DNA of 46,407 nucleotides from the NCBI GenBank assembly GCA_002719315.1, contig PBHD01000006.1, positions 1 to 46,407 on the forward strand. The letters are read 5' to 3'. This document shows positions 30,686-38,654 of this stretch, piece by piece. Below the pieces are notes generated by a model. It saw only the letters and a program-made list of their open reading frames with translations, had not been told where the DNA came from and searched no databases. Source of the DNA: Flavobacteriaceae bacterium (lineage in GTDB: Bacteria > Bacteroidota > Bacteroidia > Flavobacteriales > Flavobacteriaceae). Numbering within the stretch: the first letter of the stretch is position 1; each line of letters opens with the position of its first letter. The position numbers and the translations under genes are program-made.

Positions 30686-32047
30686 TTATTTCATTTTAAT
30701 TTCCCAACCAGATTCATAATTCCTTGACCAAAATAAATTAGCTTTTTTATTAGTTGTTTTTCCACTTATCTCATCAATATCGAAAGCTGTATTAGCTCTG
30801 TAGGCAATGTTAGCATAATGAACCATGCTTTGACTAATCACTGCATCTTCAATTGGTGAATTTAATTGGGTGTTATTTCTAATTGCATCAATAAAATTTT
30901 GCATATGTCTGGTGGTCATATCTCCTCCTCCACCTAGAGAAATTCCAGATTCAACATCATTTGATTTAACATTTTCAACAATATTTCCTTCCAAATCATA
31001 AACAGTATACTCTTTCCTGTTAACAAAGACGGACCCCTTAGTTCCATAAATAACAGTTCCTCTTCCACCTAACCTACTCTTTCCAAATGCATTTCTACTT
31101 CTTCCGATCCAGTTTATAGATTTATTTTCTGAAAATCTAAATTTTGCCTCCATGTTATCATACATGGTCCAGCCGTCATCTATAAAATGGTTTTTTTGGG
31201 CAAAAACACTCACATTATTTGGATAGTTAACATTCAATGCCCAACGAGCAATATCTAACTCATGAGTTGCATTGTTTCCAGCCTCCCCCGTTCCATATTC
31301 CCATCCATACCATCTCCAATTATAATCCCAAGTATCATGAGTATATTTTCTTCTTGGAGCAGGACCTTGAAACAAGTTCCAATTTAAACCCTCAGGCGCT
31401 TCCATTTCAACTTGATTTGGAACCATTCCTCTATTATTATTATAAAACGCAACAGCATTATAAGCTTCACCTATCAAGCCATCATGGATTTTTTTAATAA
31501 TGTTATTAGTATGATTAGAAGATCTTTGTTGATTACCCATTTGCACAACTTTATTGAAGAATCTCATATGATTTACAATTTGGTCACTTTCTTGCATATT
31601 GTGACTACAGGGCTTTTCTAAATAAACATGCTTTCCCGACTCCATGGCTTTACATGCACCATAGGCATGCCAATGGTCTGGTGTTACCATTATTACGGCA
31701 TCAACATTTTTATCATCTAGAATCTTATGGATATCAACTTCTGTTTTAGCGGAAAGCCCAGTTAAATCATTGAATTGTTTATTAGCTATTGTCATTTGCT
31801 TTTCCATCACATCACAGAAATACAAAATATCAACATTATTTAATTTGACAGATGATTTTAATAATCCTGGTAATCTTCTACCTAACCCTTGAAAAGCTAT
31901 ATTAATTCTATCATTTGCCCCAATAACTTTAGAATAACTTTTTGCTGAGAGTTTATTTGGTGACCCGTACAAGGTTTCATTAACAGTCAATAAACCAATG
32001 GATGCTAAGGAAACTTTTTTTAAAAATTTTCTTCTTTTATTTTTCAT
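30686..32047 (-). CDS. Gfo/Idh/MocA-family oxidoreductase with Tat-like signal
   Basis: KRRKFLKKVSLASIGLL; VDAVIMVTPDHWHAYGACKAMESGKHVYLEKPCSHN. Confidence 0.9.
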   Translation of the reverse strand: MKNKRRKFLKKVSLASIGLLTVNETLYGSPNKLSAKSYSKVIGANDRINIAFQGLGRRLPGLLKSSVKLNNVDILYFCDVMEKQMTIANKQFNDLTGLSAKTEVDIHKILDDKNVDAVIMVTPDHWHAYGACKAMESGKHVYLEKPCSHNMQESDQIVNHMRFFNKVVQMGNQQRSSNHTNNIIKKIHDGLIGEAYNAVAFYNNNRGMVPNQVEMEAPEGLNWNLFQGPAPRRKYTHDTWDYNWRWYGWEYGTGEAGNNATHELDIARWALNVNYPNNVSVFAQKNHFIDDGWTMYDNMEAKFRFSENKSINWIGRSRNAFGKSRLGGRGTVIYGTKGSVFVNRKEYTVYDLEGNIVENVKSNDVESGISLGGGGDMTTRHMQNFIDAIRNNTQLNSPIEDAVISQSMVHYANIAYRANTAFDIDEISGKTTNKKANLFWSRNYESGWEIKMK

Positions 32048-32098: not shown

Positions 32099-33493
32099 TT
32101 AAAATTCTCTTACTTTAATGTTTTTAAAATATACTTCGTAACCATGATCTTGTAAAAGAATATGACCAGCATCTAAAAGTCCAAAACCAGCCCATTTTTG
32201 ATATTTACTGTAATTTACAAGTGACTTAAAAACTTGGGAATACCTATCATATTCCAGCATTTTTATATTATCCAACCAGTGTTCAACGTGACCTCCATCT
32301 ACAAATATTCTTGCTCTATGCCAAGTGTTGGGTTTAACATTTCTTTTTCCTCTTGATTCTTGTAAATTTTCGGCTGTTATTAAATCATACAAAGAAGCTA
32401 CTGTTCTATTTCCTAAAACACCTTTCTTTGCATCAGGGTGATTTTCATCATCTAAAATTTGAAATTCAAGTCCAATTGAAGACCCTTTGCCTTGATTCAT
32501 TTCAGTATCAACAAAATATTTAATCCCACTATTAGCTCCCTTTGTAATCATAAAATCTAACTCTAATTCAAAATTGCTAAACTTTTTTTTAGTAACTATA
32601 TCACCACCAAACTCTGATTCTTTACCACCACTATCTATAACTTTTAATAAACCATCCTTAATTATCCATCCATTTTTAGGAAAAGTATTTAATTTTGCTC
32701 CTCTCCAACCATTTGTTGTTTCACCATCCCAAAGAAATCTCCAACCTTTAGATCTTTGGTCATCTGAGAGATAATTATCGATATAATTTATTTCAGTAGC
32801 GTAACTTTCAACAGGCCACCTGTTTTTTTCAATATCTGTTGTTGAAATTCTTAAATTTTTCCATCGCACAACCTTTCCTTCGTTCTCAACTGTATTTATA
32901 GAATGTATTTGCAATGCAATAAAACCTCTTTTGGAAGTGTCATCTAATAAATTTGAACATTGAATTCCATTAACCCATGTTCTTATAGATGTTCCCACTG
33001 CCTCAATCCTGACTTTATTCCAAACACCATTTTTAAAAGCGTTTTTTCCCTTTTCATTTCTTGTTAAAGGATACAAAAAAAGACCTCTTCTTGATTGATC
33101 ATAAATCCCACCAGTCCATGATCTAAACTCATCCGTATCTAGTTCACACTGATAACCAAAAACATCTCCTTTTTTTGAGATAAGACTTCTAAATTGAACA
33201 CCAGAATTTAAACCAGGAGATGCGAAAATTTCATATTCAAAAATAAAATCATCATAATGATTAATAGTCCCCATGTAGGTGCTTGGAGAGTTTAATATTG
33301 ATGTTGCTTGAATTACACCGTCATTTAAAATTTCAAAGTCTGCCTGACCTTGCTTTATTTCCCAACCATCAAAATTCTTTCCATTAAAAAGTTGTGTCCA
33401 GTTTGTTTGTGACAATCCTATCAATGGAAATAACAGTAGCAAAAGAGTGTAAATTTTAATCCATTTTATTTTTATCATAATTATTGTTTTCAT
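32099..33493 (-). CDS. Secreted protein with two DUF1080 (3-keto-disaccharide hydrolase-like) domains
   Basis: LFNGKNFDGWEIKQG...NSGVQFRS and LWDGETTNGWRGAKL...NSGIKYFVD mark two copies of the domain. Confidence 0.85.
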   Translation of the reverse strand: MKTIIMIKIKWIKIYTLLLLLFPLIGLSQTNWTQLFNGKNFDGWEIKQGQADFEILNDGVIQATSILNSPSTYMGTINHYDDFIFEYEIFASPGLNSGVQFRSLISKKGDVFGYQCELDTDEFRSWTGGIYDQSRRGLFLYPLTRNEKGKNAFKNGVWNKVRIEAVGTSIRTWVNGIQCSNLLDDTSKRGFIALQIHSINTVENEGKVVRWKNLRISTTDIEKNRWPVESYATEINYIDNYLSDDQRSKGWRFLWDGETTNGWRGAKLNTFPKNGWIIKDGLLKVIDSGGKESEFGGDIVTKKKFSNFELELDFMITKGANSGIKYFVDTEMNQGKGSSIGLEFQILDDENHPDAKKGVLGNRTVASLYDLITAENLQESRGKRNVKPNTWHRARIFVDGGHVEHWLDNIKMLEYDRYSQVFKSLVNYSKYQKWAGFGLLDAGHILLQDHGYEVYFKNIKVREF

Positions 33494-33496
33494 TAA

Positions 33497-34312
33497 TTAA
33501 ACCCCACTGAAAGCATTAAAACCTCCATCAATTGGCAAAACTACACCAGTTATAAAACTTGAAGCATCGCTACATAAAAAATGTATAGCCCCGTTTAATT
33601 CTTCGGCTTTACCAAAGCGTTTCATTGGAGTATTATTAATAATAGTATTTCCTCTCTGGGTGTAAGACCCATCTTTATTTAATAAAAGATCTTTGTTTTG
33701 ATTTCCTATAAAAAATCCAGGTGCTATAGCATTTACTCTAATTTTTCCGTTAAACTTCAAAGCCATTTCTACAGACATCCACTTTGTAAAATTTTCAATA
33801 GCTGCTTTTGAAGCTGAATACCCTACAACCCGTGATATAACTCTATCAGCTGACATGGATGAATAGTTTATAATAACTCCTGATTTTTGTTTAGCCATTA
33901 TTTTTCCGAAAATTAAGGACGGAATTACAGATCCATTTAAGTTTAGCTCTGTAACTTTTGAAAAATCTTCTAAAGATAAATCGAAAATATTTTGATTTTC
34001 GCCAATAGTTGCGCCAGGCATATTTCCACCAGCAGCATTTAATAAAATATCAATTTTACCAAATGTTTTTAAAACTTTTAAACTTACATCCTCTACAGAT
34101 TGTTTTGATATCACATTACATTCGAAACCTACTGCTTCACCACCACTTTTGAGTAACTGATTTACAATTTGATCAATTTTATCTTTATGTCTTCCTAGAA
34201 CAACAACCTTAACACCAGATTTACAAAAACTCATAGCAATTGAACTTCCTAAAACTCCAGTTCCTCCAGTGATAATTGCTACTTTATTTTCTAAACTAAA
34301 TTTTGAACTCAT
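33497..34312 (-). CDS. SDR-family oxidoreductase, probable D-mannonate oxidoreductase
   Basis: ITGGTGVLGSSIA, NAAGGNMPGATIG, YSASKAA; location in a uronate operon. Confidence 0.75.
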   Translation of the reverse strand: MSSKFSLENKVAIITGGTGVLGSSIAMSFCKSGVKVVVLGRHKDKIDQIVNQLLKSGGEAVGFECNVISKQSVEDVSLKVLKTFGKIDILLNAAGGNMPGATIGENQNIFDLSLEDFSKVTELNLNGSVIPSLIFGKIMAKQKSGVIINYSSMSADRVISRVVGYSASKAAIENFTKWMSVEMALKFNGKIRVNAIAPGFFIGNQNKDLLLNKDGSYTQRGNTIINNTPMKRFGKAEELNGAIHFLCSDASSFITGVVLPIDGGFNAFSGV

Positions 34313-34420: not shown

Positions 34421-35716
34421 TTAATAATCAAATAAATTGGGAAGAAATAATGTGATAGAGGGAATATAGGTAGTTAGAAAAAGTGAAATTATCATCACAA
34501 TAAAAAATGGAATTAAAGGTTTAATTACATTAACAATACTAGTTTTAGCCACACCAACACCAACAAATAATATAGATCCAACTGGTGGGGTACACAATCC
34601 AATACATAAATTTAAAACTAATATGATTCCAAAATGAACTGGATCAATCCCTAGCGTGGTAACAACAGGCAAAAAAATAGGTGTAAAAATTAAAACAGCT
34701 GGGGTAATATCCATAAATATTCCAACAATTAATAAAATTAAGTTAATTATTAGTAGAATAATCATTTTATTATCACTAAATCCAAGTAAAAAAGAACTGA
34801 TTTCTTGAGGAATATTTTCAAAAGAAAGAACCCAAGACATGCACATCGAAGCACTAATTAACAACATTACTATTGCTGTTGTTTCCACAGATTTTAGAAA
34901 AATTTTAGGAAGTTTTTTTATGGATAATTCTTTATAAATAAAACCCAATATAATAGAATATAATACAGCAATAGCTGAAGCTTCAGTTGCCGTGAAAATA
35001 CCAGAGATGATTCCACCGATAATTATAATTAATAAAAAAAGACTAGGAATCGCATAAAAAAATGATGCCATTATTTCTTTTAAAGTAGATCTATTACCTA
35101 CTTTATATTTATTTTTTTTAGACCAAAACAAAGCTACTAGCATCAATAAAAGACCAGTCAAAATTCCAGGGATGTAACCCGCTAAAAATAATGCCCCAAC
35201 AGAAACACCTCCACTAGCTAATGAGTAAACAATTAAAACATTACTAGGGGGAATAATCAGTCCTGTGGTTGCCGAGGTTATATTGACTGCTACACCAAAA
35301 TCTTTAGAATACCCTTCTTTTTCCATCTCAGGCCCTAAAACACTACCCATTGCAGAAGCAGAGGCCATTGCCGAACCTGAAATTGAGCCCATTAACATTG
35401 CGGAAATAATATTTATCAAAGCTAAACCGCCAGGTAAAAAACCTACCAATGTTTTGGCAAATTGAATTAATCTTCCAGCAATCCCTCCACTATTCATTAT
35501 TTGGCCTGAAAGAATAAACAATGGAACAGCCAATAAAGCAAAACTATCAAGTCCTGTAGCCATTCTTTGAGAAACTGTTGTGAATGATGATAATAGTGGA
35601 ATGCTAACTAAAATTGTGAGTAAAGAGGAAATTGAAATAGACCAAGCCACTGGAACAGATATTGATATTAAAACAATAAAGGAAAAAATCAATACTAAAA
35701 TTGGTATATACTCCAT
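34421..35716 (-). CDS. TRAP transporter large permease (DctM family)
   Basis: 431 aa polytopic; GSISGSAMASASAMGSVLGPEM, TPPVGSILFVG. Confidence 0.93.
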   Translation of the reverse strand: MEYIPILVLIFSFIVLISISVPVAWSISISSLLTILVSIPLLSSFTTVSQRMATGLDSFALLAVPLFILSGQIMNSGGIAGRLIQFAKTLVGFLPGGLALINIISAMLMGSISGSAMASASAMGSVLGPEMEKEGYSKDFGVAVNITSATTGLIIPPSNVLIVYSLASGGVSVGALFLAGYIPGILTGLLLMLVALFWSKKNKYKVGNRSTLKEIMASFFYAIPSLFLLIIIIGGIISGIFTATEASAIAVLYSIILGFIYKELSIKKLPKIFLKSVETTAIVMLLISASMCMSWVLSFENIPQEISSFLLGFSDNKMIILLIINLILLIVGIFMDITPAVLIFTPIFLPVVTTLGIDPVHFGIILVLNLCIGLCTPPVGSILFVGVGVAKTSIVNVIKPLIPFFIVMIISLFLTTYIPSITLFLPNLFDY

Positions 35717-36186
35717 TATTTACAATAATTTATTAAATCCGATACTTTATAAAAAATAATTAATAATCCACTAACAGGAACTACAAAATATACAAGTGAA
35801 AGAGGGATTTGAAGAGCAGGTGAAAACTGACCTAACAAATAAGTAATATACACTAAGCGTAAACCCCCCAAAATAAAAGCGCAAAAAACAAAAAAAATAA
35901 TGATATATATTATTATTTTTTTTATCATTAGTTGTGTGTTATCTGAGCTTTTATTAATAAAATAATCAATAGAGATGTGGCTATTTTGACCAGAAACATA
36001 AGCAGCTCCTAAAACACCAACCCAAATCATTAAATATCTTGCTAATTCCTCAGTGTAAGAACTTGGATTTTCTAATACATATCTAGTGAATACTTGCCAA
36101 AGAACAGTGAGAACCATTAAAAACATAATGATTATTAAAATCCAGCTTACTAAATTATCTAATCTTTTCCTTAAATTATTTATCAT
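35716..36186 (-). CDS. TRAP transporter small permease (DctQ family)
   Basis: RYVLENPSSYTEELARYLMIWVGVLGAAY; overlaps its neighbours. Confidence 0.9.
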   Translation of the reverse strand: MINNLRKRLDNLVSWILIIIMFLMVLTVLWQVFTRYVLENPSSYTEELARYLMIWVGVLGAAYVSGQNSHISIDYFINKSSDNTQLMIKKIIIYIIIFFVFCAFILGGLRLVYITYLLGQFSPALQIPLSLVYFVVPVSGLLIIFYKVSDLINYCK

Positions 36187-37151
36187 TTACTTTCCTTAAT
36201 TCTTTCAATAAAATTATAAAGTTCAGAATTACTCTTGTAGGACTCAAAAATATTTTTTGATTGTTCTACAAAGAGTTTTTTGTCTGGAATAATAATTTCA
36301 ACTCCAGCTTCTTTAAGAGCTTCTAATGATTCTTTTTCAGATTTTGCCCATAATTTTCTTTGTTCAATTACCGATAACTTAACACTATTGTTAACCCATT
36401 CTTTTTGTTGCTTATTTAAACTGTTCCAAGTGTGAGTACTCATTAAAAGGACATCAGGCAAAATAGTATGTTCATCTAAAGTGTAGAACTTACAAACTTC
36501 ATAGTGTTTAGACAAATAAAAACTAGGCGGATTGTTTTCAGCTCCATCAACTACACCTTGCTGAAGTGAGGTGTATAATTCGCCATAAGAAATTGGTGTT
36601 GGTGATCCACCAAGAATCTTTACCATATCAAAAGCTGTTTTACTTTCCATAACTCTAATCTTTAATCCATTTAAATCATTTGGGTTATAAATTTTTTTTT
36701 CTCTTGTATAAAAACTTCTTGCACCAGCATCATAATAGGCTAGCCCCTTTAACCAATACTTTTCTGTTCCAGAAAGTAAATCGGATCCAATATCGCTATC
36801 AAGAACAGAGTATGAATGTTCTCTGTCTCTGAATAAAAAAGGTAATCCAAAAACTTTAATATTTGGTGAAAAGTTCTCTAGTGATCCTGCCGATACTTTT
36901 GTCATGTCCAGACTACCTATTTGCAAAAGTTCCAAACATTGTCTTTCAGTACCTAATTGTTCACTAGGGTAAATTTGAATTCTCATTTTACCTTTTGATT
37001 GTAGTTTAATAACCGAATCCATAAAAACCATAGCTTTATGAACAGAGTGAGTAGTACTCAGACCGTGTCCAAGTCTTATAATTTTTACATCTCTGTCATT
37101 AGTACAGGAAATGAAAAAAACAAAAATTAAAAGTTTTAATAAAAACTTCAT
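36183..37151 (-). CDS. TRAP transporter substrate-binding protein (DctP family), putative lipoprotein
   Basis: IYPSEQLGTERQCLELLQIGSLDM, LKIRVMESKTAFDMVKILGGSPTPISYGELYTSLQQGVVDGAENNP; lipobox FFISC; start at the inner MKFLLK. Confidence 0.92.
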   Translation of the reverse strand: MKFLLKLLIFVFFISCTNDRDVKIIRLGHGLSTTHSVHKAMVFMDSVIKLQSKGKMRIQIYPSEQLGTERQCLELLQIGSLDMTKVSAGSLENFSPNIKVFGLPFLFRDREHSYSVLDSDIGSDLLSGTEKYWLKGLAYYDAGARSFYTREKKIYNPNDLNGLKIRVMESKTAFDMVKILGGSPTPISYGELYTSLQQGVVDGAENNPPSFYLSKHYEVCKFYTLDEHTILPDVLLMSTHTWNSLNKQQKEWVNNSVKLSVIEQRKLWAKSEKESLEALKEAGVEIIIPDKKLFVEQSKNIFESYKSNSELYNFIERIKESK

Positions 37152-37155
37152 TAAA

Positions 37156-37473
37156 CTAAAGTTTAAAAAAATTTTTAGCATTATAATAACAAATATTTTG
37201 GACTATTTTTCCAAAAAATTTAATATCACTAGGCAACAAACCTTCATCAATTCCTAAAGACCTCATAACTCTCCATTTATAATGATCTCCGTCAAGCGAT
37301 GCCGCATTAATATTTTTGAATGTTATGTCTTTTAATAAAATATCAGGTGATAAATGGTTATGGTAATCGATAATGGGCATTTTGGCAGCGAACTCGTGAT
37401 ACAATAATTTTGATGTTTTATTTTGTAATAAAAAATCTTCATTCAAAAATGTTTTAGTTGAATTAAATTCCAT
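37156..37473 (-). pseudogene. uxaC: Uronate isomerase, internally deleted (N- and C-terminal parts joined in frame)
   Basis: N-part FLNEDFLLQNKTSKLLYHEFAAKMPIIDYHNHLSPD...GDHYKWRVMRSLGIDE matches the UxaC start; C-part GLLPSDIKFFGKIVQNICYYNAKNFFKL matches the UxaC C-terminus; total 105 aa versus about 470 expected. Confidence 0.82.
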
Positions 37474-37475
37474 AA

Positions 37476-38654
37476 TTACATGCTTTTTAAAATTCCCAAC
37501 TCCAAACCTCTAAGTTCTGCTAATCCTCTTAATCTACCAATTGCTGAGTAACCTGGATTCTTGTTACTCTTATTTAAATCGTCCAACATTTGATGTCCAT
37601 GATCTGGTCTCATTGGAATTTTAAAATCTAATCGCTTTTGTAAGTACCGTTTTTTTTGTTCTTTAAGAATTTGTAAAACAATTTCATACATGTCAACATC
37701 TCCCTCTAAATGGTTTTCTTCATAAAAATTACCTTTTGAATCTCTTTTTGTATTTCTTAAATGAATAAAATGAACTCTTGAAGCAAATTTATTGAAAATC
37801 TTTGCTAAGTTATTTTCTTTAATAACTCCTAAAGATCCAGTACAAAAGGTAATTCCATTATTTATATATGGTACCCTTTTAAATATAAATTCAAAATCTT
37901 CTTCATTACTAACAATTCTTGGTAAACCAAATAAAGAAATTGGCGGATCGTCAGGATGAATACACATTAAAATTCCTAATGACTTTGCGTGTACTATTAT
38001 ATCCTTTAAAAAATAGATTAGGTTATTCCTTAAATCATCATGACCAATTCCATTATAGTATTTTAATAAGTTTTTGAACGATTTTAAAGAATAACCTTGC
38101 TTACTTCCAGGAAGACCTTTTAAAATATTATTTTCAATTTCAATTATTTCAGGTTTTGACAATGAGTTAAAATAATCAGTTGCCTCTTTAATCTCATTTG
38201 GCATATAGTCGAGATTAGCGTTTTTTCTTTTTAAAATAAAAAGATCAAATGCACGAATTGCACTTAGGTTAAATTCCAAAGCTTTTGAGCCGTCTTTACA
38301 CTTCTTATCTAATTTAGTTCGAGTCCAGTCAAGAATAGGCATAAAATTGTAACAAATAATTTTCACGCCACACATTGACAAATTTGACATGCTTTTTTTA
38401 TAATTATCAATTAATTCAAGAAAATTTCCTCTTCTTGTTTTAATATTTTCGTGAACTGGAAGTGATTCGACAACATCCCATGTCAAAGCTGAACTTTCAA
38501 TAATTTTTTTTCTTTTTAATATTTCAGAAACTTCCCATACTTCTCCACAATCAATATGATGAAGGGCATTAACAATTCCAGTAGCTCCGGCTTGTTTTAC
38601 ATGATCTAGTGAAACAGGATCATTTGGACCATACCATCTCCAAGTTTGTTTCAT
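37476..38654 (-). CDS. uxuA: Mannonate dehydratase
   Basis: MKQTWRWYGPNDPVSLDHVKQAGATGIVNALHHI; CIHPDDPP; RPDHGHQMLDD. Confidence 0.96.
   Translation of the reverse strand: MKQTWRWYGPNDPVSLDHVKQAGATGIVNALHHIDCGEVWEVSEILKRKKIIESSALTWDVVESLPVHENIKTRRGNFLELIDNYKKSMSNLSMCGVKIICYNFMPILDWTRTKLDKKCKDGSKALEFNLSAIRAFDLFILKRKNANLDYMPNEIKEATDYFNSLSKPEIIEIENNILKGLPGSKQGYSLKSFKNLLKYYNGIGHDDLRNNLIYFLKDIIVHAKSLGILMCIHPDDPPISLFGLPRIVSNEEDFEFIFKRVPYINNGITFCTGSLGVIKENNLAKIFNKFASRVHFIHLRNTKRDSKGNFYEENHLEGDVDMYEIVLQILKEQKKRYLQKRLDFKIPMRPDHGHQMLDDLNKSNKNPGYSAIGRLRGLAELRGLELGILKSM

Follow-up and report, generated by a model that had tools for sequence, protein, structure and literature searches.

A uronate isomerase gene reduced to its two ends, probably by a recent in-frame deletion, in a flavobacterial hexuronate operon

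Introduction

In enzymes of the amidohydrolase superfamily the HxH motif gives metal ligands and other catalytic residues sit in the barrel, most of which is lost in the gene described here. Uronate (glucuronate) isomerase, UxaC, belongs to this superfamily (PF02614), and structures of relatives have been solved (3IAC, 1J5S, and 2Q01). TRAP importers of hexuronates encoded beside uxuA, uxuB and uxaC are known, including homologues of Salmonella STM3169, and in these operons dctPQM adjoin the genes for a mannonate dehydratase, an oxidoreductase, and a uronate isomerase (PMC7660916).

The window, which is the whole stretch of 46,407 bases analysed here, contains an operon with the same neighbors, but its isomerase gene is gutted and its reductase is of the SDR type. 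Like the described UxaC proteins, the window copy has both protein ends, the N-terminal HxH and a position after uxuA, whereas a large internal part containing 56 near-invariant positions is missing. We regard the case as ordinary gene loss or decay or, less likely, an assembly error. If the loss is real, the locus would show a marine flavobacterium with a small genome soon after it lost one step of a sugar-acid pathway, in a way that spared the downstream genes. The locus is also an annotation trap, as its 113-bit Pfam match lies above the cut-off and would lead to uxaC being called present and glucuronate use being wrongly predicted.

Structure of the uxaC remnant

The 105-aa ORF at 37156-37473 on the minus strand consists of the two ends of uxaC, the uronate isomerase gene. 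PF02614 matches the ORF in two stretches of a single frame, profile positions 2-73 (E-value 3.8e-27) and 436-464 (E-value 7.8e-4), and the joint score is 110.8 bits versus a cut-off of 25; a separate Pfam scan agrees (113 bits). This two-part match is far beyond chance. The score against NF002794 is 100.4 bits versus a curated cut-off of 387. In a local BLAST against intact UxaC proteins (~470 aa), residues 1-77 match the beginning and residues ~75-105 the end. The parts of the gene are as follows.

37243..37473, minus strand: N-terminal part of UxaC, residues 1-77 (MEFN...LGIDE), with the HxH motif in DYHNHL (PF02614 2-73)
37231..37254, minus strand: deletion junction, GGA ATT GAT GAA / GGT TTG TTG CCT, located by comparing the two sites codon by codon with relatives
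37156..37242, minus strand: C-terminal part of UxaC, residues 78-105 (GLLPSD...NFFKL), and the stop codon (PF02614 436-464)

A preliminary description of this DNA read the product as the first ~77 and last ~28 residues of UxaC, joined by an in-frame internal deletion that kept the frame and the stop, and named failure of the C-terminal segment to align to UxaC as one observation that would count against it. Pfam and BLAST agree with that reading, with both halves aligning to UxaC and both stretches in one frame. The internal loss had been put at ~370 residues; the loss stands and the measured figure is 1,083 nt, or 361 codons, relative to each of the five nearest intact relatives (L024-L028). 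The junction falls exactly in frame, for which the chance expectation is 1 in 3. Precise microhomology at the junction was considered and set aside, as it is weak (5-7 of 12 bases) and unusual only in the comparison with L025. Among 113 intact relatives the exact runs shared between the two deletion sites are mostly 5-6 nt and at most 10.

The N-terminal remnant is 71% identical to the UxaC of L025 and keeps 18 of 18 near-invariant residues, and the C-terminal remnant is 70% identical to the C-terminus of the same protein and keeps 4 of 4. These near-invariant columns, 78 in number, were defined across 113 intact UxaC sequences; the window lacks 56 of them, and the other 22, which fall in the retained ends, are all unchanged. 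A full-length barrel with the conserved core is not found in the 105-aa ORF. With 56 of the 78 near-invariant positions and most of the barrel missing, isomerase activity is not expected, and the product is very unlikely to work as an isomerase.

At the UxaC columns conserved at 90% or more, 1 of 33 departs in the window, and the intact close relatives mostly have 0-1 departures. The retained part of uxaC is 63-70% identical to its relatives and uxuA is 61-74% identical, hence no extra drift is seen, as would be expected of a recent deletion, and relative rates give no clear excess in the retained part. Because none of the 22 near-invariant residues left at the two ends has changed, the deletion appears to be either recent on this scale or an artefact, and the drift data fit both.

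The operon and its relatives

The genes around the remnant are all on the minus strand and are listed below in the order of transcription.

37476..38654, minus strand: uxuA, mannonate dehydratase, intact, 392 aa (TIGR00695, 501 bits, full length)
36183..37151, minus strand: dctP, TRAP solute-binding protein, intact, 322 aa (TIGR00787, PF03480)
35716..36186, minus strand: dctQ, TRAP small permease, intact, 156 aa (PF04290)
34421..35716, minus strand: dctM, TRAP large permease, intact, 431 aa (TIGR00786, PF06808)
33497..34312, minus strand: SDR of the D-mannonate oxidoreductase type, intact, 271 aa (NF006132, 367 bits, cut-off 281)
32099..33493, minus strand: 3-keto-disaccharide hydrolase (DUF1080) family protein, immediately downstream of the SDR (PF06439, synteny)
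30686..32047, minus strand: Gfo/Idh/MocA oxidoreductase, the last gene collinear with L145 (PF01408, synteny)

The uxuA stop lies 2 nt before the uxaC start, and the dctP start, taken at 37151, lies 4 nt after the uxaC stop. UxuA, DctP, DctQ, DctM, and the SDR each have a length near that of their counterparts in relatives, and no other length defect was found. The dctM gene (34421-35716) has 23 changes on the window side versus 5 on the relative side in an outgroup-based count, more than uxuA or dctP, with branches that are unequal in length.

The window order is uxuA-(short uxaC)-dctPQM-SDR-DUF1080-Gfo/Idh. The three closest relatives (L024, L025, and L026) have uxuA-uxaC-dctP-dctQ-dctM in the same order with a full-length uxaC, and intact orthologues occupy the syntenic position in L024-L028 and L145. 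In L024, L025, L026, and L145 (G208) the gene order is shared and the flanking proteins have 57-82% identity to their counterparts in the window, but uxaC is full length in all four (466-471 aa). Past dctM, the order in L145 is SDR-kdgK-eda-DUF1080-Gfo/Idh.

A UxaC match is present in 75 of the 201 Flavobacteriaceae genomes sampled, including that of the window, and, among the matches listed, those to the N-terminus in other genomes lie in open frames of at least 458 aa. In 80 loci from the genome collection the short uxaC frames are either contig-edge cuts (L036, L066, L085, and L094) or a frameshift split (L032), and relatives whose uxaC is readable end to end are all full length except for that one split copy. 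Apparent frameshifts split three genes of L032 (FRAM18_bin214), namely uxaC, the DUF1080 gene, and the ORF that follows dctM, which suggests sequencing errors or decay in that bin. No two-ended UxaC other than that of the window was found in the 201 family genomes and the loci read, and no relative was found among viral contigs. Neither UxaC nor UxuA was found in the one congener examined, which is 66% complete, and therefore no second genome confirms the junction.

The rest of the glucuronate pathway

The source is a metagenome-type assembly of 2.1 Mb in 17 contigs with 89% completeness and 6.9% contamination. A complete Ashwell-type glucuronate pathway is not found: UxuA and the SDR are present, UxaC is gutted, and neither KdgK nor a PF01081 protein was found. 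The searches of the 89%-complete assembly returned no KDPG aldolase (PF01081) and no recognisable KDG kinase, and this absence is suggestive, although incompleteness could explain it. The PfkB proteins found are a ribokinase, IolC types, and two others without an assigned type, and KdgK of L145 used as a query gave only distant matches. The preliminary description had called the uronate operon otherwise intact, which holds for the flanking uxuA, TRAP, and SDR genes and fails for KDG kinase and KDPG aldolase. It had also stated that an isomerase encoded elsewhere is needed without UxaC. That need stands, but a search of the whole assembly for a second UxaC gave no further match, and the lower pathway is not seen either.

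Several candidates and readings were rejected. KduI was considered as a bypass isomerase, but NCBIfam places both PF04962 matches with IolB (one below its cut-off), and one of these IolB-type genes lies beside IolC and the other beside IolE/IolD in inositol clusters. There are two such myo-inositol catabolism clusters, one with iolC and iolB at G000:C12:156000-172000 (L190) and one with iolE, iolB, and iolD at C1:28000-40000 (L191). An extra DHDPS-like protein on C1 was a candidate KDG aldolase, but its gene adjoins an L-fuconolactonase-like gene, which makes a role in L-fucose breakdown more likely. The region concerned, G000:C1:188000-200000 (L192), contains the L-fuconolactonase-like gene, the DHDPS-like aldolase, SDRs, and an aldehyde dehydrogenase and probably encodes a non-phosphorylating L-fucose breakdown. 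Loss of kdgK-eda from the operon as a second event specific to the window's genome was likewise rejected, as L026, in which uxaC is intact, also lacks them there.

Origin of the short gene

The preliminary description left three options: a deletion, a collapsed assembly or strain variant, and a short protein retained for another reason. A recent deletion is the best supported of these because the flanks are collinear with those of intact relatives, the near-invariant residues that were retained are unchanged, the two sites share no long repeat in relatives, and the window has no ambiguous bases. We consider that uxaC is probably a pseudogene formed by a recent in-frame deletion, either fixed or segregating. 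Approximately 1,083 bp would have been lost inside the gene through slippage or illegitimate recombination, leaving the first 77 and last 28 residues as a presumably inactive remnant without most of the barrel. Because the operon has 2-4 nt spacing and the remnant preserves its start, reading frame, and stop, translation coming from uxuA may continue across it into dctP, dctQ, dctM, and the reductase gene. The cell could then take up glucuronate but would be unable to convert it to fructuronate unless the genome has an unrecognised isomerase.

The main rival is that the genome has a full-length uxaC from which ~1.1 kb was dropped in the merging of contigs or strain variants. This is rather unlikely, although the source is a contaminated 17-contig bin in which several contigs have the single Ns typical of merged variants, the deletion is known from one genome alone, and the unchanged conserved residues would suit a copy that is really intact. 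Against it, the adjoining genes have no other length defect, the junction is exactly in frame, and the missing piece is not found on any other contig. Collapse at an exact overlap in particular is unlikely because the runs shared from site to site are short (10 nt or less) and the window has zero N over its full length, unlike other contigs. As examples of the latter, G000 contig C1 (L143) has 484 scattered single Ns in 19 kb and C8 (L147) has 105 in 3.9 kb, which resemble merged strain variants. A sub-case of the preferred deletion is that it is real but segregating, with some strains keeping a full-length uxaC and the contig following the deletion variant; the strain-mixed look of other contigs and the recent look of the event speak for this, the window has no mixed sites, and we hold it only tentatively. 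That the 105-aa protein was retained for another role, such as a subunit or regulator built of two UxaC ends, is very improbable. In its favor, the two ends still have every near-invariant residue, and the start, frame, and stop are preserved, but a recent deletion accounts for the same facts and no other truncated form was seen among the genomes and loci examined except the contig-edge cuts and the frameshifted copy, which leaves this option of the preliminary description without support.

Two further readings concern the operon as a whole. The whole route from glucuronate to KDPG may be in the course of being lost in the lineage, with uxaC as one step, which is compatible with a recent deletion. 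The KDPG aldolase and KDG kinase that were not found and the kdgK-eda pair that L145 has between the SDR and DUF1080 genes, where the window has nothing, point to such a loss, but the assembly is just 89% complete, the uxuA, TRAP, and SDR genes are intact, and L026, which also lacks kdgK-eda at the operon, keeps a full-length uxaC and has an aldolase and a related kinase elsewhere in its genome; we therefore regard it as a possible but doubtful extension. It is highly unlikely that the operon, having lost UxaC, KDG kinase, and KDPG aldolase, has been repurposed so that its TRAP importer, mannonate dehydratase, and reductase now handle another acid (e.g., imported mannonate or fructuronate) whose product leaves via another route.

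The genome also has a second UxuA, ~50% identical to the operon copy and without an adjoining UxaC, at G000:C1:337614-338774 (L143:9606-10775, minus strand). It lies near genes that resemble a SusC-type gene and its neighbor in L144.
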